The notes under the pieces are model-generated. The model made no database searches and was not told where the DNA came from. It saw nothing but the letters and a program-made list of their open reading frames with translations. The position numbers and the translations under genes are program-made. Of a stretch of 32,702 bases of DNA, positions 10,415 through 32,702 are shown in pieces. Positions within the stretch are counted from its first letter, which is position 1. Each line of letters opens with the position of its first letter. The stretch covers positions 1 through 32,702 of IMG/VR virus record IMGVR_UViG_3300009504_000021. One strand, 5' to 3'. This DNA comes from a virus.

Positions 10415-10825
10415 TCAACATGAACAACTTGTAACTATCATCCTAACAGACAGCTTGCACCAATGGTCATTGCCAACAGCATTCCTACTCACAGGAACAT
10501 AAACAACCGCTGGCATATCGTCTTCAGAATAGAACAGGCATTGATAACTACTCCCATAATACTCAAAGACAAAACCAGCATGTGAAGCCACACTCTCACT
10601 ATATGCTTTCAACTCCTTTGCTGTGCTGATCTTCTGCCAACCACTATCATCGTCTGACTCTAAGATTATAAGCTCTCCTATGTAAGCCTCTGGCTTTCTG
10701 TTCCTGTATAATATGGGAACACCCCATACGCTCCTGGTAACTTCATTAATATCCCTTGAATATTCATGCTCATTTCTCCAGTATATGTGATTGTCTAATG
10801 TGGTACTGTTAATTATGATGGACAT
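10415..10825 (-). CDS. Small protein after the glycosyltransferase, unknown
   Basis: The protein has 136 residues and an unrecognised, probably mixed alpha/beta fold, with a Cys-rich end (MIVTSCSC). I placed the start at ATG 10825 because AGGAG lies exactly 7 nt ahead. A longer reading from TTG at 10849 is open but has no ribosome site. The gene overlaps the last 17 nt of the glycosyltransferase. Position between tape measure and hub is where a distal tail (Dit) protein is often found, but I see no sequence support for that name. Confidence 0.55.
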   Translation of the reverse strand: MSIIINSTTLDNHIYWRNEHEYSRDINEVTRSVWGVPILYRNRKPEAYIGELIILESDDDSGWQKISTAKELKAYSESVASHAGFVFEYYGSSYQCLFYSEDDMPAVVYVPVSRNAVGNDHWCKLSVRMIVTSCSC

Positions 10826-12869
10826 AGTTGAACTCCTCACAGTAATCAAAGCCTAACTGGTATTTGACATTGTACTCTGTATCCCTGTCATCTATTTCCA
10901 ATACATACTCATAGTCTGAAACCTTAAACTTGATCCTACCGTACAAGTTGAGCTTGAGTATCCTGTCCAAAACTTCTATTGCTGTGATGGTAAAGACAAC
11001 TGGTCTGTCTATCAATACACTCGGATTTGTCATAACCCCCCTGTATGGTTCATGCTCACATAGCATAGACTGTGACATTAATGATTCCATCATATAAGCA
11101 TGTGAAATTTCATCGCTTTCACAAGTATATATTTTAATCTTAGAGACTTCCTTGTTTAACCTTATAACCTTTGTCCCGTAATCCATTCTAAACTTTTTCA
11201 GTGCATCAGCCCATTCCTTGCCGTAATTGCCCTCGCTTAAATGTTTAATCCCTATAGGACAAACCCCAACTTTATAACCCTTCCTGTTCGCATCTATCCC
11301 AAAAGCAATGTCATAGAAGTGGAACTTGTTATAAGCCTTCCAAGGAATATCCCTTGCTACATCCCCCCTCATCGCAACAAAACAACCATCAAATGTTAGA
11401 ATGTCCTTGTCTACCCCATAGTTTGTGAAAGAGAATTTCCCATTCTTTAATGGATGTGCTACACAGCCCCCTGAAATTAGCCCATTCAACTCAGGCGACC
11501 ACATGCCATGCATGGGATTAAACAGAGTGCTACCACAGGCAGCCACAATGTCATACTTTTTCAGCCCATCCACCACTTTATGTAACCAGTTTTTATCAAT
11601 TATCTCTATGTCATCATGTGCAAATATAAAGATGTCTACATCTTTATTGTTCCCTGTTACAGTATTAAAAACATCAGCCAGGCTGTGTTCCCCATTGTTC
11701 AAAGACATTATGACATTTATATCATAGAATACAGAGTTCTTCAAAACGTTGTCCTTTATCTTCTGTAATGATTCTTTTGTCCTACTCGAAGTGCAATACA
11801 ATATCTTTTTCTTGCTATTGTCTAACCCTGTATTTACTGTGTACTGATTCTTTTTCTTGTTACTCTTTATCATGCCGTAGTAAGTTTGATAATAATGATT
11901 TAACCCTTCATTATGTAAGTTGTAGTTTTCTTTGACTACCTCATGCAACTCAAAACCTGCATTCAACCTGGCTTGCTTATTGTCTATCAAATAACATAGA
12001 GCATCTTTCCATTCTTTATTCCCATCAGCTATGATTAAATTTGAGGCAAGTTTAGACTTCGTGTACGGAACAATAGGTGACGCCACTACCGGACATCCTA
12101 TCGCCCCAAACTCTGTAGGCTTCAATTCTGACTTGCAATGATTAAACATACTGTCAATAGCAGGACAAATCCCAATATCTATGTTAGTTTGGCTCAATGT
12201 CTTGTAGTACCCATGCATGTCATTATTGAATGGCACAAAGTCTACACAGTTAAGCCCTTTGAATGCAGTAGGGCAATCACCAAAGAATATTATCCTGACT
12301 CTCCCCTTGTACTGACTGAGTATTTCAAGCAACGCTTCCTGTGCTGGCATAATGTCAACATCCCTTCTTCTGAAGTCTAAAGTCCATGCAATTCTTACTA
12401 TGCCATCAACAGACTTTCTTCCAAAAGGTAAAGCGTTAATGTTCAGGTAATTAGGTATAACATGTATCTTGTTTCGAGGAAAGCCCGTCTGTTGGGTAAT
12501 TACATCAGCCAGGAAATCCGTTGTCGTTGTCATGTAGTCACACCTGCTCATGAACAGTTTGTATTCATTTAGCATTGACTCATGTTTATCTTTACACTTA
12601 TCACCTTCAATGTTCAGGTATTCGGGAAGATGCCAAATAGAATCATCTAAATCCATGACATGGACTTGATCACCATCTAACTTGTATAGGTCTTCCAGAA
12701 GACAACTCTTCTGCCAAACCACCAAATCAGATAAAGGGGAATGAATGTAATTGGTATCATAGCACTTAATATAGCCGCAATTATTTAGCTCATTCCTGAC
12801 CTGTGCTATCCTGAGAAACCCCGCCCCATGAGGAATTGTCTCATAAAAACTTACTAATAACTTTTCCAT
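10809..12869 (-). CDS. Two-domain glycosyltransferase (GT-B plus GT-A)
   Basis: The protein has 686 residues. Residues 1-335 resemble GT4-type GT-B enzymes: VMDLDDSIWHLP at 71-82, VIPNYLN at 137, a Rossmann-like second half (RVRIIFFGDCP at 190-200) and the nucleotide-sugar region KSELKPTEFGAIGCPVVASP at 246-265. Residues about 354-565 resemble GT2-type GT-A enzymes: FIFAHDDIEIIDKNWLHKVV with an acidic metal-site pair at 419-420, then FDGCFVAMRGDV and FHFYDIAFGIDANRKGYKVG. The last ~110 residues are unassigned. No membrane segment or signal peptide is visible. It likely transfers two sugars in sequence onto a virion or cell target. The ATG has AAGGAG 10 nt upstream and follows the tape measure gene by 18 nt. 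The substrate cannot be read from sequence. Confidence 0.8.
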   Translation of the reverse strand: MEKLLVSFYETIPHGAGFLRIAQVRNELNNCGYIKCYDTNYIHSPLSDLVVWQKSCLLEDLYKLDGDQVHVMDLDDSIWHLPEYLNIEGDKCKDKHESMLNEYKLFMSRCDYMTTTTDFLADVITQQTGFPRNKIHVIPNYLNINALPFGRKSVDGIVRIAWTLDFRRRDVDIMPAQEALLEILSQYKGRVRIIFFGDCPTAFKGLNCVDFVPFNNDMHGYYKTLSQTNIDIGICPAIDSMFNHCKSELKPTEFGAIGCPVVASPIVPYTKSKLASNLIIADGNKEWKDALCYLIDNKQARLNAGFELHEVVKENYNLHNEGLNHYYQTYYGMIKSNKKKNQYTVNTGLDNSKKKILYCTSSRTKESLQKIKDNVLKNSVFYDINVIMSLNNGEHSLADVFNTVTGNNKDVDIFIFAHDDIEIIDKNWLHKVVDGLKKYDIVAACGSTLFNPMHGMWSPELNGLISGGCVAHPLKNGKFSFTNYGVDKDILTFDGCFVAMRGDVARDIPWKAYNKFHFYDIAFGIDANRKGYKVGVCPIGIKHLSEGNYGKEWADALKKFRMDYGTKVIRLNKEVSKIKIYTCESDEISHAYMMESLMSQSMLCEHEPYRGVMTNPSVLIDRPVVFTITAIEVLDRILKLNLYGRIKFKVSDYEYVLEIDDRDTEYNVKYQLGFDYCEEFNYVHHN
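10833..10837 (-). promoter_or_regulatory. Ribosome binding site deciding the 10825 start
   Basis: The minus strand reads AGGAG, then 7 nt, then ATG. It lies inside the 3' end of the glycosyltransferase gene and selects the shorter of two open starts. Confidence 0.7.
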
Positions 12870-20464: not shown

Positions 20465-20779
20465 TTACTCTTTTTCTATAAATTCAATATACTTCTGTTT
20501 GCTAACTAATCCACTAATTCTCCCAATTTCATGTCTGACACCATCAATAAAATTAAACATTATTACTGTAGGAACACCCCTTATTTCAAACAACTCACGA
20601 CAAGCCTGACTTCCATAGTTCCCATCTGTAATATCACAAGCCATGAACACCACATCTTTGTAGATATTCTCAAGCTCAAACAGTACAGGTAGAACTTTTT
20701 TACAAGGGACACATTGTTGTGTCCCAAAGTAAACTAAAGCCTTCCCACTACCAGGGAACTCACAAGGAAACTGCCTCAT
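20465..20779 (-). CDS. Thioredoxin-like protein
   Basis: The protein has 104 residues, the normal length of a thioredoxin. The redox motif is CVPC at 23-26 followed by KK, and the cis-proline loop is RGVPTVIMF at 67-75. Strand and helix order fits the fold (ALVYFGTQQ; VVFMACDI; GRISGLVSKQKYIEFI). The usual WCGPC is replaced by QQCVPC, nearer to glutaredoxin/thioredoxin hybrids in phages. Extra cysteines occur at 6, 48 and 60. There is no signal peptide, so it acts in the cytoplasm or in the virion. It starts at ATG 4 nt after the tail tube stop, with no clear ribosome site, so coupling to the tube gene is likely. It may control disulfides in tail proteins or serve host metabolism. Confidence 0.85.
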   Translation of the reverse strand: MRQFPCEFPGSGKALVYFGTQQCVPCKKVLPVLFELENIYKDVVFMACDITDGNYGSQACRELFEIRGVPTVIMFNFIDGVRHEIGRISGLVSKQKYIEFIEKE

Positions 20780-24325: not shown

Positions 24326-24330
24326 CCCCT
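24326..24330 (-). promoter_or_regulatory. Ribosome binding site deciding the 24318 start
   Basis: AGGGG on the minus strand overlaps the capsid stop codon region and sits 7 nt before ATG 24318. Confidence 0.6.
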
Positions 24331-25462
24331 ATACTGTTAGAGTCAGTGCATGTGTCGCCTTAGGAAATATCTTACCGAATCCATCGTAATGACTCATCAC
24401 GATTCTTTCATATCCACCCAAGATAATCCTTTCTGTCTCTGTCAAGTCCGCACCTATTTCAAACCATCTCTGAGCCGCATACCTATTGTCAATTCCTATG
24501 ATAGTATTTGCTGATATATGAGCATCATCCACAACTACTATTGTCGGATTTGCATTCAGACCCCTAACTAACCTTGGATCGTTTTTAATAGAAGGATCTA
24601 AAGACTCCCTCAAAGCCAAAGTATCAATACTCGCCCTTGTCATGTTGAGAATAGTAAACGCTGTGTCAAAATTCATGAAGGTAGTGTTAATACTGTAAGG
24701 TCTTCTTGAGTTTAGCCATTTCAGCCATGCCCTATATGTGATTTCCCCAGCAGCAGAGATAGAAGAATCAAAAGATTGTGCCGTTGCAGTATCCGCAGCC
24801 GGAGTCATTGCTGTACCCCTGCCGTTCAGGAGGAAGCTCAAGCCTTCCCTGAATATCGCCCTCTTCTGAAACCCTGCAAATCTGGTGATGGCAGGTCTAA
24901 TTATCTCAACACTGGCTCTTCTCAGGAACTCGTCACTCCACCTTATAGATATACCATACTTTTTCATGCTCTCAGCTTTCTCGGTATATCCAATTGTAAA
25001 TTCCGGTGGAGCTGCAAGCTCGTTGATTACAGATTCCTGATAGTCTTCCTCTTTATCGTCAATATACAATTCCTTGAAGATGTTAGTGTTAATCCCCATC
25101 TGGTTGCCACCAGTGATCAAGCCAACATCATAAGGATCGTCTTCAGGAACTAACATCTCCCACCTTGCAAGAGAACTAATGAACTCAGGAAACAATATCC
25201 TTGCACTACTGTCTGTAACAAAGAATTGAGCCAAAGAACCTGCATATATTCCCTTTTCCGGTGAAGATTTAACCCTTATCCCAAATCTCTGTAGCTGTCT
25301 TTCGTAAGCCGTCAAAGTGTCGTTAGGCTTACTCGGATTCATCCTCTCCAAGTATTCGCTAAATGATAGACCAAACTCTTCCTTTGCAATCCTATACATT
25401 TCTGGCTTTAACTGGATTTCACCAGGACAATCTGTTCTTGGTATTTCCAATATATCTCTCAT
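24329..25462 (-). CDS. Major capsid protein (HK97 fold)
   Basis: The protein has 377 residues. It follows the protease and decoration genes, as major capsid genes do. Visible elements suit the HK97 fold: an N-terminal helical segment (1-70), a long helix region around 165-205 (IRWSDEFLRRASVEIIRPAI), a hydrophobic core strand (PTIVVVDDAHISA) and a beta-rich end (TERIILGGYERIVMSH). There is no obvious large cleavable delta domain, consistent with a separate scaffold carried by the protease protein. The ATG has an AAGGAG-type site upstream. Assignment is by synteny and overall pattern, not by a short diagnostic motif. Confidence 0.75.
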   Translation of the reverse strand: MRDILEIPRTDCPGEIQLKPEMYRIAKEEFGLSFSEYLERMNPSKPNDTLTAYERQLQRFGIRVKSSPEKGIYAGSLAQFFVTDSSARILFPEFISSLARWEMLVPEDDPYDVGLITGGNQMGINTNIFKELYIDDKEEDYQESVINELAAPPEFTIGYTEKAESMKKYGISIRWSDEFLRRASVEIIRPAITRFAGFQKRAIFREGLSFLLNGRGTAMTPAADTATAQSFDSSISAAGEITYRAWLKWLNSRRPYSINTTFMNFDTAFTILNMTRASIDTLALRESLDPSIKNDPRLVRGLNANPTIVVVDDAHISANTIIGIDNRYAAQRWFEIGADLTETERIILGGYERIVMSHYDGFGKIFPKATHALTLTV

Positions 25463-25474
25463 TTTTCCTTCTCC

Positions 25475-25927
25475 TTATCTAAAAAACAGAATTACTTTCT
25501 GGTTAGTAACATCATACTGTATTACCTCTGGGGCATTAGGATAAATCTCACTCGCACTGGTAGCCAATTCCTTGACCTTACCATCGCCACCACCTATAGC
25601 ATACATGCCAGGCAAGAATGATGCTGATGTCGCTCCTGATACAGCAGGAACTTCTAACAAGCCCTGTGTCGATACAGTTACAGTAACTACATCAGACCCT
25701 GGCGAATCAGACCTAACCTGGTCAAGTATGGCGTCAAGCCTGCCTAATATCCTGTCGTCATCACCAGCAAGTTTCACATAAACCCCATCAGAATTTTGTG
25801 CATGAGTCTTGCTTTCTAAAGTCACTGCATGACCTTTGTGAGCGTTCAATGCACCAGTCATAAGGAAGGTAATCCCCCTGCCTGTGTACATCCCCTTGTA
25901 CTTTACATTTCTTGGAATAGATACCAT
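25475..25927 (-). CDS. Head decoration-like protein
   Basis: The protein has 150 residues, rich in Gly, Val, Ser and Thr, with beta-barrel character (HAVTLESKTHAQNSDGVYVK; VVTVTVSTQGLLEVPAVSG). Lambda gpD-like decoration proteins, which stabilise the expanded capsid, are similar in size and are encoded exactly here, between protease and capsid. The ribosome site AGGAGGGG before the ATG is among the strongest in the window, fitting a high-copy capsid component. The gene starts 12 nt after the protease stop and ends 12 nt before the capsid ATG. Confidence 0.65.
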   Translation of the reverse strand: MVSIPRNVKYKGMYTGRGITFLMTGALNAHKGHAVTLESKTHAQNSDGVYVKLAGDDDRILGRLDAILDQVRSDSPGSDVVTVTVSTQGLLEVPAVSGATSASFLPGMYAIGGGDGKVKELATSASEIYPNAPEVIQYDVTNQKVILFFR

Positions 25928-25939
25928 GTTTTTCCCCTC

Positions 25940-27037
25940 CTATTTGACCTTATATATCTCTGTGTCTTCAGGCATTTCCGTAGTATCAGTGTTCTGTGTC
26001 ATGCCAGCATTCCTGTTTTTTGTGGCAAGCTCAATGAACTTTAATCTCATCTCTTGCAACGAATCTATACTCTTTCCTGTGAACATCGCTTTGTCAAAGT
26101 CATTTCCATAAGCCTTTACCCCGTACTCTGCCAACATGTCCAAGTAAGAATCCTTAAACTTTGATAGCACCTGATTGTTCGCCTCTAATTCACATATCTT
26201 GTTTTCCATCTCTTGCATTTCAGTTTTGCTCTTCTCTACAAGTGATGACAACTCTAAACTATTGCTGATGCTCTCCTGCAATTTTGTGTTGACACTCTTT
26301 AACTCGTTAAGAGCATCTAATATCGCTTTATTACTCTCACCATCCATGCTAATAGTAGCCTCCTGTTTCTTTTTTAATTTATTGTCTTTTATATTAAAAT
26401 CAATTTTCCCATAATGAACCGAATCACCCATGCCTACACCAAAAGAAGCCACCTTGTCCGGTACTATTATCCCTGCACCAGGAAGACTACCATCAAGAAC
26501 AATGTGGAACGTACTGTAAACAGTCCCATCATGATATGCCTTCCCATGACAAGATTGCCCCTCATACTCACAACCAGGATAATGACGGCAACCTGACTCC
26601 CAAGAGTATAAGTCTAACCCACATATAGAACAAAGCACTTTCCCAGGTCTGAACTCTATGCTCGTATCAAACAATGTGCCAAAGTTCAACGACTTAATAA
26701 TGTCGTTACTTGTTATCCCATTCCCTATGTTAATGTCCTTAATCATGTAAACTTTAGCAACAGACTTATCCCCTGTTAGGTAACTATAACCCTGTACAGT
26801 CCTACCCAAAGAGATGTATGTGTTCCTATCATGCAATATCCCCATCGCTGTTTGTCCTGAATTTGTGTATTCAGTATAGCCTCTCAGGAAGTCCGGCTGC
26901 AATACCATGTTCCAACTGGCGTTATACTCCCCTGTGCAAGTAACAAAATCAAACACCTCTATATCATCCATGGAGATTTTAGAATCCTCCTGGAAGTTCT
27001 TCCTTATAACCTGGAAAATTTTTTCATCAATCTTCAC
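25940..27037 (-). CDS. Prohead protease with Cys/His insert and scaffold tail
   Basis: The protein has 365 residues. The N-terminal ~210 match HK97-type prohead serine proteases: GILHDRNTYISLGRT places the catalytic His at 69, and LFDTSIEF gives the likely nucleophile Ser126. A probable metal-binding insert follows (CSICG at 136-140, CRHYPGC at 150-156, CH at 163-164). Then comes LDGSLPGAGIIVPD, typical of the strand after the active site. Residues about 235-300 form a Glu/Lys coiled coil, consistent with a fused scaffold, and the last 25 residues are acidic. The start is GTG, overlapping the portal stop by 1 nt. The protease would cut scaffold and capsid proteins during head maturation. Confidence 0.8.
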   Translation of the reverse strand: MKIDEKIFQVIRKNFQEDSKISMDDIEVFDFVTCTGEYNASWNMVLQPDFLRGYTEYTNSGQTAMGILHDRNTYISLGRTVQGYSYLTGDKSVAKVYMIKDINIGNGITSNDIIKSLNFGTLFDTSIEFRPGKVLCSICGLDLYSWESGCRHYPGCEYEGQSCHGKAYHDGTVYSTFHIVLDGSLPGAGIIVPDKVASFGVGMGDSVHYGKIDFNIKDNKLKKKQEATISMDGESNKAILDALNELKSVNTKLQESISNSLELSSLVEKSKTEMQEMENKICELEANNQVLSKFKDSYLDMLAEYGVKAYGNDFDKAMFTGKSIDSLQEMRLKFIELATKNRNAGMTQNTDTTEMPEDTEIYKVK

Positions 27038-28509
27038 TATCCTAAACCCCCCATCTTCAAAATGTTGTCCTCCTTCTCGTCTTCAGTCCTCGTGTCAATA
27101 GTATCCTCCCCTGGAGTCTGATCTTCGGGTTGCTGGTTATACCCACCATTATCACTGTCATCATCATCAGTAGTCCCAATGCTAACCCCCAAATGCTTCA
27201 GCCTATAGTAATCAAACCATTTAGGCTGAAACCCAGAAGGCAATCCACGACCAGTCAATTCCTGACACGCATCATCTAATGTGATGAAATCTATGCAAGC
27301 AAGCTCTAATAACCGCTTCTGTCTCATTAATTTATGGTTCTCTATCTCATTGGGAGACCGTAAATCAACATCGTCAAAGGTTATTGTAGCATTGCCGGAA
27401 AGCCCCTCCAACCTTAAACATAAATTCAATATACTCGCTAAAGTTGGCATAATAGTCTTCTGTATGTACTTAACACCCCTTACATACAAAACACCCTCAA
27501 CACCTTCATCAGAAGACCCAGACCTCCCCAATATACTCGGTAAAGTCTTTAATCCACTGCTTATCTGCTGATCCAATATCTTCACCAATGGAGCTATGTC
27601 TATATTCCCACTCGATGAAGGACTCAGGTAACTCAACTCCGCACTATCATAATGAACAATAGCATCCTCTGGCTTTAACCCTGACAACATGGATTGGAAC
27701 TCAATTCTCCTCGACTCCAGCCATTGTCGCAAACTGTCCGCATTTCTACGCACACTCGCTGGAGCATTCCTTATCATCACATCCTCTAATATCTTGCCAT
27801 GTATCCTCGCCCAACCAGCCCTGTCAACAACCTTCTCCAAGTCCTGCAAAACCCCTATCCTAAAAAATATGGGCTGCAACGAACTAAGAAAAATAGGGAT
27901 GTGCTGAACACTGTCAACATCAGGATCTATAAAACACCAGAATAGAAACTCCGAACTAACCTTCTTGCCCTTCTGGTAAGCAACAAACTCATCACCCTCC
28001 CTATACCAGTCTATCCACTTCGGATCTACTACCCTAATATGACTGAAATAACCCTCATCATCAGTGATAACCTCCATGCCACAAGCACCCCTTGTTAAAC
28101 ATAATCTGCTAACCTGACGCAGTACCGTACTAATACTCCTGTCAACAGAATGACCCTCCATCCTTTTTAAGCAGCTATGAAGACGCTTCGTTGCACCACT
28201 CTTAATGTTACCCCTCTGGTCTGTGACGCTAAACTTAACACCACTGTCTAAAGCAATCAGGAAGTTGTGTATGGCATCAGACATGTCACTGTCAAACCTA
28301 CTAAGTTTGTCTATAAGTTTGTCAGGATCACGATTGTAACGGTAGGATTCTAAGTCCTGAAGGTACTCATCATAAAGAACTTTCCTGGCTGATTGACGGG
28401 AAGTAGTAGAACCGCCTAACTCATAATGCGGATTAGAAACCTTCCCCCTGTTATTAGAAGGAATTTTATCCGTTGTAGCCTTTTTTCTCCAAAAATTAAA
28501 AATAGACAA
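27037..28509 (-). CDS. Portal protein
   Basis: The protein has 490 residues. The portal forms the dodecameric channel through which DNA enters the head. Supporting features are its size, its place upstream of the prohead protease, and typical segments: IRVVDPKWIDWYREGDEFVA (wing beta region), an LSSLQPIFFRIGVLQDLEKV helix, LPSILGRSGSSDEGV before the crown helices, and a helical end with ENHKLMRQKRLLELACID. The C-terminal ~50 residues are very acidic (DDDDSDNGG). The start is TTG at 28509 with GGGAG 9 nt ahead. It is the first gene after a 99-nt gap holding a promoter-like sequence. Confidence 0.85.
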   Translation of the reverse strand: MSIFNFWRKKATTDKIPSNNRGKVSNPHYELGGSTTSRQSARKVLYDEYLQDLESYRYNRDPDKLIDKLSRFDSDMSDAIHNFLIALDSGVKFSVTDQRGNIKSGATKRLHSCLKRMEGHSVDRSISTVLRQVSRLCLTRGACGMEVITDDEGYFSHIRVVDPKWIDWYREGDEFVAYQKGKKVSSEFLFWCFIDPDVDSVQHIPIFLSSLQPIFFRIGVLQDLEKVVDRAGWARIHGKILEDVMIRNAPASVRRNADSLRQWLESRRIEFQSMLSGLKPEDAIVHYDSAELSYLSPSSSGNIDIAPLVKILDQQISSGLKTLPSILGRSGSSDEGVEGVLYVRGVKYIQKTIMPTLASILNLCLRLEGLSGNATITFDDVDLRSPNEIENHKLMRQKRLLELACIDFITLDDACQELTGRGLPSGFQPKWFDYYRLKHLGVSIGTTDDDDSDNGGYNQQPEDQTPGEDTIDTRTEDEKEDNILKMGGLG

Positions 28510-28608
28510 GTTGATGTGCTCCCAAAACTACAAATTAATAATACAACTAATGAAGAGAAAAAAAACTACCAAACTATACTTAAAAATTAACACATGTAGC
28601 AATAAATG
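28510..28608 (-). promoter_or_regulatory. Intergenic gap with candidate promoter upstream of portal
   Basis: This is the longest gene-free stretch inside the cluster. On the minus strand TTGCTA (28602-28597) and TATAGT (28578-28573) are 18 nt apart, matching 4 of 6 and 5 of 6 bases of the sigma-70-type consensus. A T8 run at 28565-28558 lies downstream without a GC-rich stem, so I do not call a terminator. The promoter would raise expression of head and tail genes separately from the packaging genes. Confidence 0.5.
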
Positions 28609-29070
28609 TCAATAGCTATTTGATATACTATCCACAATACCTTTAATGCTCTTGCCTAAACAAAAACCTATCACACTAATATCATACCAATTAATACTGC
28701 ACTTCCCCGAAACCTCTACGAAATTTAAGAAGTCCTCAATCTTGACAAACCAGATAAACCCCTTCTCCCTGCTCTCCAACAAGAAACCAGCCCTGCACCC
28801 CCGCATGTGTGCCTTGTGTAAGCTGCTGACCTGATGCGGCTTGATCATCTTGTTCCTGCCTATGGAAAATAACCCCCCACCCGTAGTCTTTAGCTCAATA
28901 CAATACAACATGCCACAGTAATAATAAAATACATCGTATGGATTCTTTGCCATAAACCTGAGGTTGTTCCCCTCAACCTTTCCAGGGTAATCATAGAAAG
29001 AATACCAGTATATCCCTAACGATTCTAACTCTTTGTAAAACCTCGACTCAAATTTCTTGCCTACTAACAT
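28609..29070 (-). CDS. RecU-like Holliday junction resolvase
   Basis: The protein has 153 residues. It fits the RecU nuclease layout: GKKFESRFYKELE at 4-16, the acidic residue in NPYDVF (Asp46), the IELKTT motif with Glu59 and Lys61, then KPHQVSSLHKA (His79-Gln80) and AGFLLESREKGFIWFV. RecU-type enzymes are metal-dependent and cut four-way DNA junctions. In a phage this would remove branches from replicating concatemers before packaging. The ATG follows the clamp stop by 2 nt with no clear ribosome site, so translation is probably coupled. The gene precedes a promoter-bearing gap and the portal gene. The family is confident; the exact junction specificity is inferred. Confidence 0.75.
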   Translation of the reverse strand: MLVGKKFESRFYKELESLGIYWYSFYDYPGKVEGNNLRFMAKNPYDVFYYYCGMLYCIELKTTGGGLFSIGRNKMIKPHQVSSLHKAHMRGCRAGFLLESREKGFIWFVKIEDFLNFVEVSGKCSINWYDISVIGFCLGKSIKGIVDSISNSY

Positions 29071-29072
29071 TG

Positions 29073-30134
29073 TTAGCTCAACGGCATTATCAAGTAAGAA
29101 TCATCAGCATCTTCTAACAAGACAATATCCCTTTCTGTGGTAAAACTAAATGTGGCATCATCAGAAGACAAACATCTAAGAATGTCCTGTAAATAAGTAA
29201 CATTAAAGCTGAACGCTATGTCTTGCTGGCACATGCAAGGTATCCTTGTCGAACCACTACAAGAAGATCCATCCTCTGCCATTAAATGACACTCGTTGCC
29301 CTTTATTACCATGCGGATAGAATTAAATAACTCACTGCATAAAGGCTTGATGACAGAAACAGCCTGCAATAATTCCGCCTTGTCAAAGACCATGCTGCCA
29401 CCTGATGAACCAGGAAACAAACTACTGTGTTCAGGGAAATCAAACGCCATGCACCTCAATTGCAACCTATCACCCAAATGAATGTCAACAACATTGCCCG
29501 CAACCCGAAGACATATTATGTCATTCCCATTGAACAACTTGGTTATAAATCTGACATCCTTCAATGCTAACAAGAATCTACAGTCCTGAACGCCACTTGC
29601 TTGGATTTTTACCTCTCCTAACCTATGCCCATCAGAAGCAACAATAGACAAATTCCCATCCTTAATGCAGAACAGTATCCCATCAAGACCATTGTAACTC
29701 TTTCTAACCACAAAACAAGATAGCTTCGATAAAGCAACCTCTAACTGCGATAACGAAATAGGAAGCAAAACCCCATCATCCCTAACATCAGGGAAAGAAG
29801 GATACTCTTCGATTCTCACTGTAGCAAACTCAAAAGAAGATGACCCACATACCATCCTTATAGAATTACTGCCCTGGAAAGAAAACTGAATGTCTCCTTC
29901 AGGAAGATACTTCACAATGCTATGCAACTTACTGAACGGCAATAAACACTTGAATCCACTATCCTCAACCTCTTCTTCAAAAGTTGCAATTGCCGACACA
30001 CTCAAGTCAGTTAAGTAGACTCCTTTGCTACTGTCCAGTAAACAATTACTCAAAATTGGTAAAATTTGTTTAGGCTTCACTATTCCAACTAACTTTTCCA
30101 AACTATTCAATAGAACTTTCTTCGAAATTCTCAA
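29073..30134 (-). CDS. dnaN: DNA polymerase III beta sliding clamp
   Basis: The protein has 353 residues, close to the bacterial beta clamp (about 366). Family hallmarks are visible: KPKQILPILSNCLL near the N-terminus, EEYPSFPDV at 109-117, the LDGILF strand at 150-155, SDGHRLGEV at 167-175 in the partner-binding pocket, and YLIMPL at the extreme C-terminus, which closes the same pocket. Three-domain length is complete, so the protein should form a dimeric ring around DNA and bind polymerase or other clamp-binding proteins. The start is TTG with AGGAG 8 nt upstream. It sits between a small coiled-coil gene and the resolvase gene in the packaging operon, an unusual place for a replication gene. 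Confidence 0.9.
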   Translation of the reverse strand: MRISKKVLLNSLEKLVGIVKPKQILPILSNCLLDSSKGVYLTDLSVSAIATFEEEVEDSGFKCLLPFSKLHSIVKYLPEGDIQFSFQGSNSIRMVCGSSSFEFATVRIEEYPSFPDVRDDGVLLPISLSQLEVALSKLSCFVVRKSYNGLDGILFCIKDGNLSIVASDGHRLGEVKIQASGVQDCRFLLALKDVRFITKLFNGNDIICLRVAGNVVDIHLGDRLQLRCMAFDFPEHSSLFPGSSGGSMVFDKAELLQAVSVIKPLCSELFNSIRMVIKGNECHLMAEDGSSCSGSTRIPCMCQQDIAFSFNVTYLQDILRCLSSDDATFSFTTERDIVLLEDADDSYLIMPLS

Positions 30135-30156
30135 AAGATAAACTCCTTTTTATTTG

Positions 30157-30462
30157 TTAACCACGTACTAAACCCTTGTTGTGCTTCCTAATCTTCAACT
30201 GAGATAATTCTACCTCCAATTCTAACCATTCAGATAACAACCACTTCAATTCAACATAATTGGCTAACTCTAACTCAATGTCAGGAACAATCCCAGGATG
30301 GATAGGCTCATTCAAAACACCCCTGCCACCTGAAACACTATAACGCAACATCTTGTGACCATGACCACGATCCGATAATTCACCAGAACGCAACCGACCC
30401 AAAGATGAAATCCTACCCCGAATATCCAAAATCTTAGACTCTAACTGTTGCAACTTCTTCAA
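30157..30462 (-). CDS. Small coiled-coil protein of the packaging operon
   Basis: The protein has 101 residues if read from TTG 30462. I prefer this to GTG 30471, because that GTG belongs to an AGAGGTG ribosome site which lies 6 nt before the TTG. The N-terminus (LKKLQQLESKILDIRGRI) and the C-terminus (LELANYVELKWLLSEWLELE) are helical and heptad-like. The middle (30-60) is a His/Gly-rich loop with IHPGIVPDI. I do not recognise a family. Such a layout could be a small connector or a terminase accessory, but nothing proves it. Confidence 0.55.
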   Translation of the reverse strand: MKKLQQLESKILDIRGRISSLGRLRSGELSDRGHGHKMLRYSVSGGRGVLNEPIHPGIVPDIELELANYVELKWLLSEWLELEVELSQLKIRKHNKGLVRG

Positions 30463-30468
30463 ACTAAA

Positions 30469-30475
30469 CACCTCT
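30469..30475 (-). promoter_or_regulatory. Ribosome binding site deciding the 30462 start
   Basis: AGAGGTG on the minus strand overlaps the large-terminase stop codon and precedes TTG 30462 by 6 nt. A reading from the GTG inside it would leave no spacer. Confidence 0.7.
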
Positions 30476-32057
30476 AAATTTTACTGCTGAAAGTATGGAA
30501 ACCCACCATGAAACTATTGTGACTGTTACTCATCTGTCCACTCAATGCATAAATAACAGCCATCGCAAAGTGATCAGGCATCCCCATGTTAGTGTACCTA
30601 ACCTTGCCCTCCTTGTCCTTGTCCCCCTTTATCGCATTAAAATGATCAAGAAAATCAATGTTCTCATCCATTATATGCTCCGCAAATAATAAACGACCAT
30701 CCTTGATGAAACCACTAACCTCACTTATCGCAACATTCTTGTGCAAAGTTATAGTCAATTCAGCCTCATCAACCTTACTCAAACTACTGACATTCCTAAA
30801 CCAAACATAATAAACCTTCGGCAACAAATCCTTAACCTGCCTCGCAAAAGTAACATCAGGCAAAGGATCTATCCCTACAAAAAAAGGATTGTACCTGTCT
30901 ATGACACGCCTTAACCGATATATCCCCTCCGAACCATCACAAACAAAAGAATCTATCACTATCCACTTGTCTAACCGTACATCAATAACTACAACATGCT
31001 TGTCTACACTGTTGTCAATGCCTACCAAACAACCATAACTCCTGTCCACAGGCGACTCCCTGACAATAGCTGACTCCAATACCTCCAAGTTAAAAGGAAC
31101 TAACTCAGCACTGTCATAAGGTAAACCATACACGCAATTCCAAATGTGCTGGGAAGCCTCAGGATGCAACTTGTAACGATCCTCACTCAACTTAATACTC
31201 TCAGCATCAAAACTACTACTCCAAATCTTGCCAATCTGATAACTACTCTTACCCGAAAACTCCCGCTTCGCTACAAACTCACTCCTGCAATCAGACTTAA
31301 TCAACTCCCTACCACAACTCGGACACAAAAATACCCACCGATTATGTAAACGCTTTATGCTGTCAGGCATCAAACAAACCCAATCACTACAACGATTGCA
31401 CTTATATAATAACCACTTCTGATCACCCTGCTTAAATAACTTGTCTATCCCATAATTACTGAAAGTAGGCGTACTGAAAAATCTACGCAACGCTAACTTA
31501 CTGTCCTCCAACCTACTCGCATACTCACTAACCGTAAACAAATCACTCTTGTCTATCTCATCATGTATCAAAATATCAGCAGGAATACTCAACGCAGATG
31601 TCGTGCCACGTGTCCCACGAAAATAAATGAATGCCTCAAGTATCTGCTTCAATCCAGAATTATCAACACTACCACGTACAGGGAAAGTAGACTCCAAATC
31701 CTCCAACATACTACTAAAACGATCCGCACTAAATACCTCAATGTCACTCTTAGTAGGCATCGTGTAAATAATACGAATCCTACCATGACGTACACACCAC
31801 CGAACACCCAAACGAACAAATAACTCAGTAGCACCAACCTGTGAACCCTTACGGACACTCACCCAATCACACTCATCATCACATATCGGAATCAAAAATT
31901 CACGACCTACAAAACTAAAACGCTCACTCATCCGCTTAGGATTAGTCATGTACTTACATAACCACTCACTGTTCAACAAATCCTCAGCAAAAGGTAAATG
32001 ACTGTCTATCCTACTGCCAAATTGACGAATCTCCCTGCCTATGTCTATCCCTGTCAA
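30474..32057 (-). CDS. terL: Terminase large subunit (packaging ATPase-nuclease)
   Basis: The protein has 527 residues. The motor domain has a Walker A-type loop RKGSQVGATE at 69-78 and Walker B DILIHDEID at 161-169, as in gpA-type terminases. A probable zinc site follows: CNRC at 220-223 and CPSC at 245-248. The RNase H-like nuclease domain carries its acidic residues in VGIDNSVDK (Asp348), VGIDPLPD (Asp397) and MPDHFAMAVIYAL (Asp495). It drives DNA into the prohead and cuts the genome. The start is TTG at 32057, overlapping the small subunit's TGA (TTGA), with GAGG 5 nt ahead. The next ATG is at residue 37 and would remove conserved N-terminal sequence. Confidence 0.92.
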   Translation of the reverse strand: MTGIDIGREIRQFGSRIDSHLPFAEDLLNSEWLCKYMTNPKRMSERFSFVGREFLIPICDDECDWVSVRKGSQVGATELFVRLGVRWCVRHGRIRIIYTMPTKSDIEVFSADRFSSMLEDLESTFPVRGSVDNSGLKQILEAFIYFRGTRGTTSALSIPADILIHDEIDKSDLFTVSEYASRLEDSKLALRRFFSTPTFSNYGIDKLFKQGDQKWLLYKCNRCSDWVCLMPDSIKRLHNRWVFLCPSCGRELIKSDCRSEFVAKREFSGKSSYQIGKIWSSSFDAESIKLSEDRYKLHPEASQHIWNCVYGLPYDSAELVPFNLEVLESAIVRESPVDRSYGCLVGIDNSVDKHVVVIDVRLDKWIVIDSFVCDGSEGIYRLRRVIDRYNPFFVGIDPLPDVTFARQVKDLLPKVYYVWFRNVSSLSKVDEAELTITLHKNVAISEVSGFIKDGRLLFAEHIMDENIDFLDHFNAIKGDKDKEGKVRYTNMGMPDHFAMAVIYALSGQMSNSHNSFMVGFHTFSSKI

Positions 32058-32542
32058 AACTTCCTCGCTATCAAACTCTTCATCTTCAATAATATGTCGT
32101 GCTTCGCACCCTCATCAAACTTACCTACCTCATCCAATACTATCCGCTGAAATTCACGGAATACCTTCACATTATGATAACGCTCCTGACTCTTCAACAT
32201 AAACGCCTGGTAACGCTGTACACTGTCCAATATCTTAAACCTATTGCCATCTACATCCCCATCATGCAAATTCCCCAATAACATGTGCTTCAACGCTATA
32301 TATACCTCCTTCGTCTCCATACCAACATCTAACATGTTATCATAACCTACATGTATCCGAGGAATACGACTAACAAAACCTAACTTTACCAAAAATTCCC
32401 TGAACTCCCCTACCAAAGACATGTCTATCCCCAACGAAGAAGAAAGCTCATCGTCAGTAGAACCCGATCCAACTAACTCAACACCAAGTAACACCAATTG
32501 CATAAACTCACGAAATAAAATACTCTGCCTGCTAACTAACAT
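32054..32542 (-). CDS. terS: Terminase small subunit candidate
   Basis: The protein has 162 residues and sits immediately before the large subunit, overlapping its TTG. Residues about 29-60 (DDELSSSLGIDMSLVGEFRE, then LGFVSR) read as a winged or plain helix-turn-helix, the DNA-recognition element of small terminases. The C-terminal 60 residues are helical and could form the oligomer ring. There is no ribosome site: the 160 nt upstream on the coding strand contain no purine-rich stretch, while an extended -10 element ends 6 nt before the ATG. I therefore think the mRNA is leaderless. The family name rests on position and HTH pattern. Confidence 0.7.
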   Translation of the reverse strand: MLVSRQSILFREFMQLVLLGVELVGSGSTDDELSSSLGIDMSLVGEFREFLVKLGFVSRIPRIHVGYDNMLDVGMETKEVYIALKHMLLGNLHDGDVDGNRFKILDSVQRYQAFMLKSQERYHNVKVFREFQRIVLDEVGKFDEGAKHDILLKMKSLIARKF

Positions 32543-32548
32543 ACTACT

Positions 32549-32576
32549 ATTATACCAAAAATAACAAAAATGAAAA
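32549..32576 (-). promoter_or_regulatory. Extended -10 promoter driving the late operon
   Basis: On the minus strand TGGTATAAT (32557-32549) is a perfect extended -10 element. TTTTCA at 32576-32571 matches 4 of 6 bases of the -35 consensus at 16-nt spacing. Six bases separate the -10 from the terS ATG, so the expected transcription start is the A of that ATG. Confidence 0.7.
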
Positions 32577-32702
32577 GGGAAAAATAAAAAAAGATAAGAG
32601 GAAAATGAAAGGGAAAGGGAGGGAAGGATGGGGAAGGGAAGGGGGAAAGGGAAGAGGGGAAGGGGGATGGGAAGGGGGAGAGGGAAGAGGAAAGGGAAGG
32701 GA
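32566..32702. other. C-free polypurine tract (plus strand)
   Basis: No C occurs on the plus strand across 137 nt, and only six T are present (32571, 32585, 32595, 32606, 32629, 32668). The left part is A-rich, and from about 32611 G-runs of 3-5 recur every few bases. No gene is visible in it. It reaches the window edge, so its full length is unknown. Confidence 0.95.

Follow-up and report, generated by a model that had tools for sequence, protein, structure and literature searches.

The window analysed here comprises the whole of the IMG/VR-type virus record IMGVR_UViG_3300009504_000021, which is complete as a record (32,702 bases) but is a fragment of a genome. Its minus strand carries almost every long gene, and at the right end these follow one another in the transcriptional order of a probable small terminase subunit gene (terS), the large terminase subunit gene (terL), a gene for a coiled-coil protein of 104 amino acids (aa) named p104, a beta sliding clamp gene, the gene of a RecU-like Holliday junction resolvase, a gap of 99 nucleotides (nt), the portal gene, genes for a 365-aa and a 150-aa protein, the major capsid protein (MCP) gene and the tail genes. 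The clamp (353 aa, full length with three domains; 29073-30134, minus strand) and the resolvase (153 aa; 28609-29070, minus strand) lie within the packaging operon, an arrangement that is real and rare. From terS to portal the intergenic gaps are -4, 2, 22, 2 and 99 nt, with all genes on the same strand, and the clamp start is preceded by a strong Shine-Dalgarno sequence, AAGGAG, as read from the sequence. An earlier note on this DNA had described terS, terL, a small coiled-coil gene, a clamp and a RecU-like gene as contiguous and followed by the portal, and all five genes were confirmed at this place on the minus strand. No further replication gene was recognised on the 32.7-kb record, and the remaining replication module therefore lies outside the record or is absent.

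Assignment of the clamp and the resolvase

The clamp is predicted to be a beta sliding clamp of the bacterial type (DnaN), and this assignment is solid because the protein matches phrog_947 over its full length with an E-value of 2e-44. Pfam recovers the N-terminal domain (PF00712, 5.9e-24), the C-terminal domain (PF02768, 6e-9) and the central domain (PF02767, 2.5e-5), the last with a score slightly under its Pfam cut-off, and matches to solved bacterial clamps in the PDB reach down to 9e-23. In an alignment with these solved clamps, residues 168-172 of the protein read DGHRL and its C-terminus reads IMPLS, the C-terminal end being one residue shorter than that of the Escherichia coli clamp. 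This loop and the Met-Pro pair of the C-terminus line the partner-binding cleft of such clamps. When the terL product and the clamp of the window were used singly as queries against viral contigs, no close relatives came up, and profile scans were required. As the clamp pattern TDGHRL could miss the SDGHRL form of the window, a second pattern scan of the viral contigs was added, which gave no clamp closer than ~24%.

The 153-aa protein is, as predicted from its homology, a RecU/phrog_843-type resolvase, and this assignment is likewise solid, because it matches phrog_843 at 7e-19 and has conserved catalytic residues. In an alignment of seven sequences (the window and six relatives), E8, D46, E59, K61 and Q80 are invariant, and this E...D...ExK...Q set is presumably the pattern to be expected for RecU-type nucleases. 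The match to the Pfam RecU family has an E-value of 2.7e-4 and 21.4 bits, which is under the Pfam cut-off of 25. All top 10 Foldseek hits are RecU crystal structures (E 1e-3 to 7e-2), obtained with a low-confidence query model with a mean predicted local distance difference test score (pLDDT) of 51, and a PDB profile search with the RecU alignment returned no match at E <= 0.01.

The terL-portal junction in related packaging modules

The terL, portal and MCP genes are homologous, and in the same order, to those of the Pseudomonas phages PMBT3 and UAntarctica, and the same packaging and head module was also found in many IMG/VR contigs as well as in a few contigs assigned to metagenome-assembled genomes (MAGs) of bacteria or archaea. 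Identities to these relatives are mostly 23-33%, and no close relative was found. By homology and gene order, the packaging and head genes belong to a PMBT3-like group. Within this group, 145 loci contain terL as well as portal; 141 of them carry the two genes on one strand, separated by a median of 64 bp, and inserts of >900 bp stand between them in seven of these 141 relatives. Where legible, the cargo, named by eye, comprises a DNA methyltransferase and a resolvase/invertase (L294), a phosphoesterase-like protein (L314), large repeat proteins (L319 and L331), a PhoH-like ATPase (L335) and small lysis-type proteins (L339); none of the seven large inserts holds a clamp or a RecU. Because the inserted genes are different and unrelated across the relatives, the terL-portal junction is, judged from this gene content, an insertion site in the PMBT3-like group.

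The p104-clamp-RecU block itself is absent from these relatives. The earlier note had asked whether terL, dnaN and recU adjoin each other in other phage genomes, and we found no clamp in 85 relative records (0/50 and, among closer ones, 0/35, many of the latter being 70-87 kb long) and did not see the order elsewhere, although the same clamp search picked up even very diverged clamps in other contigs (G099, G100). Resolvases of phrog_843 are present in 3 of the 50 relative records and in 11 of the 35 closer records, where they lie elsewhere than in the window. Five of the contigs were inspected, and there the resolvase gene is well away from the portal gene (e.g., 58 kb against 28 kb for the portal in G103, and 67 kb against 24 kb in G113) and adjoins polymerase/exonuclease and SbcCD-like genes, as read by eye. 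It follows from this neighbourhood, and from the lack of any clamp, that in the relatives the resolvase is, by gene context, part of a replication/recombination module and a clamp is absent. What the earlier note had named as speaking against its idea, relatives that share the packaging genes but have clamp and resolvase elsewhere, is thus largely what was seen, although these relatives are only ~25% identical. A recent foreign origin of the block was also considered on the basis of composition, but is unsupported: the GC (guanine plus cytosine) content of clamp and RecU is within the range of the window, and strong skew is common also to terS and terL.

Clamp and RecU genes in other phages

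Annotated phages have their clamp gene in replication modules. Among 50 clamp-bearing contigs, 23 have a detectable TerL, and in these the median distance between clamp and terL is 16.9 kb, with <4 kb in three, one of which (L233) entered through the motif scan and not through even sampling. None of these 23 contigs shows the order of the window, in which the clamp follows terL within the head operon. In two contigs with a GpA-type terminase the clamp is close to the terminase genes: in L168 (9935-16544) it ends 20 nt before terS (phrog_57), with terL further on, and in L145 (7051-12569) clamp, terS and terL follow in the same order, with a phrog_2044 gene, whose family bears the name RNA polymerase beta subunit, between the clamp and terS/terL. 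A short clamp-like gene stands head-to-head with terL in L233:344-2890 and L241:2-2476.

The nearest RecU homologs are those of gut-type phages, where the gene is one of the structural module, flanked by the genes of a virion structural protein and of the tape measure. Homologs of the window subtype are in the tail module of L262 and L003, and RecU relatives are placed likewise in L003 and L259-L265, in several of which a tyrosine recombinase gene follows RecU before the tape measure. Furthermore, the idea that clamp and RecU form a conserved pair had to be rejected, as phrog_843 is present in none of the 50 clamp contigs and a clamp in only one of the six phages with the RecU subtype, in which both genes are far apart on the contig.

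Neighbouring genes of the packaging and head module

The large terminase subunit (527 aa; 30474-32057, minus strand) is of the GpA/phrog_675 type (phrog_675 8.1e-71, PF05876 4e-10). Its Walker A-like K70, DE166-167, the nuclease residues D348, D397 and D495, and H496 are all invariant in 11 relatives. The probable small subunit (162 aa; 32054-32542, minus strand) is assigned by position, since family profile searches gave no match; its only homologs, all weak (E 0.001-0.05), come from the relatives L330, L292, L275 and L270, in each of which they immediately precede terL. An extended -10 promoter-like site (TTTTCA, 16 nt, TGnTATAAT) at 32542-32576 ends 6 nt before the terS ATG, and a transcript from there would therefore be nearly leaderless. 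The contig end just upstream of terS is a pyrimidine-rich tract of ~120 nt on the minus strand (32583-32702), which may be an assembly break, a packaging-start feature or the genome end. Moreover, the coding strand of terS, terL and p104 is T-rich, with a GC skew of 0.43-0.53 that fades to ~0.2 over clamp, recU and the head genes.

The p104 gene (30157-30471, minus strand) belongs to no known family, and no homolog was found among 348 loci. Its AlphaFold model is a two-helix hairpin with helices at residues 4-28 and 63-102 and a loose middle, and the pLDDT is 83-94 over most of the helices. The length of 101 residues that had been given before holds with a TTG start, whereas the GTG three codons earlier gives 104 aa.

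Downstream of the resolvase gene is the AT-rich 99-nt gap (28510-28608, minus strand) with a weak promoter-like match, such sites being no commoner than in shuffled sequence, followed by the portal protein gene (490 aa; 27037-28509, minus strand; phrog_3753 1.3e-54). The 365-aa gene (25940-27037, minus strand) occupies the place of the head protease/scaffold of PMBT3-like phages, from which its function is suggested, and has positional homologs in L270 (5e-9), L267 and L280. The 150-aa protein (25475-25927, minus strand) sits ahead of the capsid gene, by position where the small head protein would be expected, with weak homologs at the equivalent position in L278-L281, L013 and L014, and the MCP (377 aa; 24329-25462, minus strand) matches phrog_3922 at 1.2e-53. 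L270, which gave the best match of the 365-aa gene, is a contig binned in an Asgard archaeon MAG and has the same terS-terL-portal-protease-capsid module. Further genes of the window include a thioredoxin-like gene (20465-20779; PF00085 8.8e-9, CVPC active site) amid the tail genes, a glycosyltransferase gene with two glycosyltransferase-like domains between the tape measure and tail-fibre genes (10809-12869), and the truncated last gene (1-708) with DUF285 (BspA/Mycoplasma-type) repeats and a weak PKD match.

Possible roles of the clamp-resolvase block

The reading we favour, with a probability of about 0.55, is that the window holds the late half (packaging, head and tail) of an uncultivated tailed phage in which a p104-clamp-RecU accessory block sits at the PMBT3-like terL-portal junction and is made together with the packaging motor. 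The block would be transcribed with the terminase genes, so that clamp and resolvase would be made late. The resolvase could then clear replicating or recombining concatemers of branches and crossovers, sparing the motor from stalling as T4 gp49 does, and the clamp, presumably loaded by the host, could hold DNA polymerase or repair factors on the phage DNA during late concatemeric synthesis; a direct contact of the clamp with terminase or resolvase would not be required. A resolvase made late makes sense because gp49 of T4 acts at the portal and gene 44 of SPP1 lies beside the terminase genes. Several points weigh against this reading: the weak promoter-like match in the 99-nt gap stands ahead of portal, the record is a fragment with the rest of the replication genes out of view, and the clamp might be required early, when a late operon would not supply it. 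Also, the block may perhaps be native to the true lineage of this phage, as the nearest relatives are at ~30% identity.

It is possible, albeit doubtful, that clamp and RecU are pure cargo at an insertion-tolerant junction and serve general replication and repair, so that they would have no packaging-specific role and their neighbourhood would carry no message. The different, unrelated genes that seven of 141 relatives hold at this junction are in line with such cargo, as are the usual place of phage clamps in replication modules and the resolvase genes that adjoin polymerase/SbcCD-like genes in the five closer relatives inspected. However, two related DNA genes with very short gaps within a terminase operon are less likely to come together at random, RecU recurs in late modules (L003, L259-L265), and a clamp adjoining terS recurs in L168. 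A direct coupling, in which the clamp on the DNA tethers the resolvase, the terminase or p104 and thereby brings them from the fork to the packaging motor, is unlikely. The tight operon, the cleft motif DGHRL and the C-terminal IMPL retained by the clamp, and the T4 precedent, where gp17 binds gp55 and gp55 binds the clamp gp45 (PMC9026906), would fit it, but the linkage is missing from every relative examined, the resolvase of the closer relatives is far from terL, and the operon proteins do not exceed the shuffled expectation in clamp-binding motifs. In a regular-expression scan of the six proteins from terS to portal, the counts of canonical clamp-binding motifs were near that expectation, the strict five-residue motif did not occur at all, and QxxLF was found once (0.44 expected), as QSILF at residues 6-10 of terS, the only suggestive hit; contacts through noncanonical motifs may exist. 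The search for such motifs in the neighbours, which the earlier note had proposed, thus brought up none exceeding chance, and its suggestion that the clamp tethers resolvase, terminase or the small protein was not supported, as moreover the set is not retained alongside the packaging genes in relatives. Physical tethering by the clamp is unsupported and remains a guess. The broader proposal that replication, debranching and packaging are coupled through one co-expressed set fared better in part, as the tight spacing and the precedents of late resolvases speak for it.

Even less probable is a version in which TerS or p104 serves as the adaptor that keeps a host-loaded beta clamp moving along with the packaging complex, so that both debranching by RecU and packaging would begin on newly replicated DNA. 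That the clamp is an activator of late transcription like T4 gp45, bringing RNA polymerase to late promoters, is the most improbable of these ideas. Besides the T4 precedent, it could draw on L145, whose clamp adjoins a gene of the RNA polymerase beta subunit family followed by terS and terL, but the record yielded no gene resembling gp33 or gp55, and a clamp encoded in the late operon would need to switch on its own transcription. Taken as a whole, the block, by its gene content, looks more like a hot-spot insertion than like proof of a new replication-packaging machine, because the relatives lack the clamp/resolvase arrangement. If it is true that clamp and resolvase are made and used together with the terminase as we favour, this would be a compact system for studying how phages pass replicating, branched DNA on to the packaging motor, a handover that has so far been studied mainly in T4. 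Even as cargo, the genes would mark the terL-portal junction as an insertion hot spot able to accept replication genes, and a phage gene neighbourhood therefore needs to be checked against relatives before a function is inferred from it.

Comparison with known systems

The closest known arrangement is that of PMBT3 (Maxrubnervirus) and UAntarctica, which share with the window the order of terL, portal, protease, small head protein and capsid, with terL, portal and MCP at 23-33% identity; unlike in the window, portal follows directly after terL without a clamp or resolvase in between. The contigs L145 and L168 (IMG/VR, GpA-type) resemble the window in having a beta clamp 2.6-3.7 kb from terL, but their clamp is upstream of the terminase, no RecU is present and the terminase and head family are different. 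For the proposed role, T4 is the nearest parallel. Its resolvase gp49 (endonuclease VII) is bound at the portal and frees packaging motors stalled at branches (PMC9958956), and its terminase gp17 binds the late sigma factor gp55, which in turn binds the clamp gp45, so that a link of clamp and terminase has been argued (PMC9026906). However, the T4 proteins are of other families, and the contacts measured in T4 are only conjectured for the window. In SPP1, gene 44 encodes a junction resolvase and immediately precedes terminase genes 1 and 2, and a role in packaging has been considered (PMC3485210). In this adjacency it is like the window, whereas it belongs to the RusA family, stands at the end of the early operon upstream of terS and has no clamp beside it. 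The open-access literature gave no paper describing the order terL-clamp-recU-portal, which does not show that none exists; the author of the earlier note had not seen this order described. The precedents of T4 and SPP1 make a coupling of resolvase, clamp and packaging plausible, yet for the same reason the concept itself is not new; new here are the arrangement and the pairing of a bacterial-type clamp with a RecU-type enzyme.

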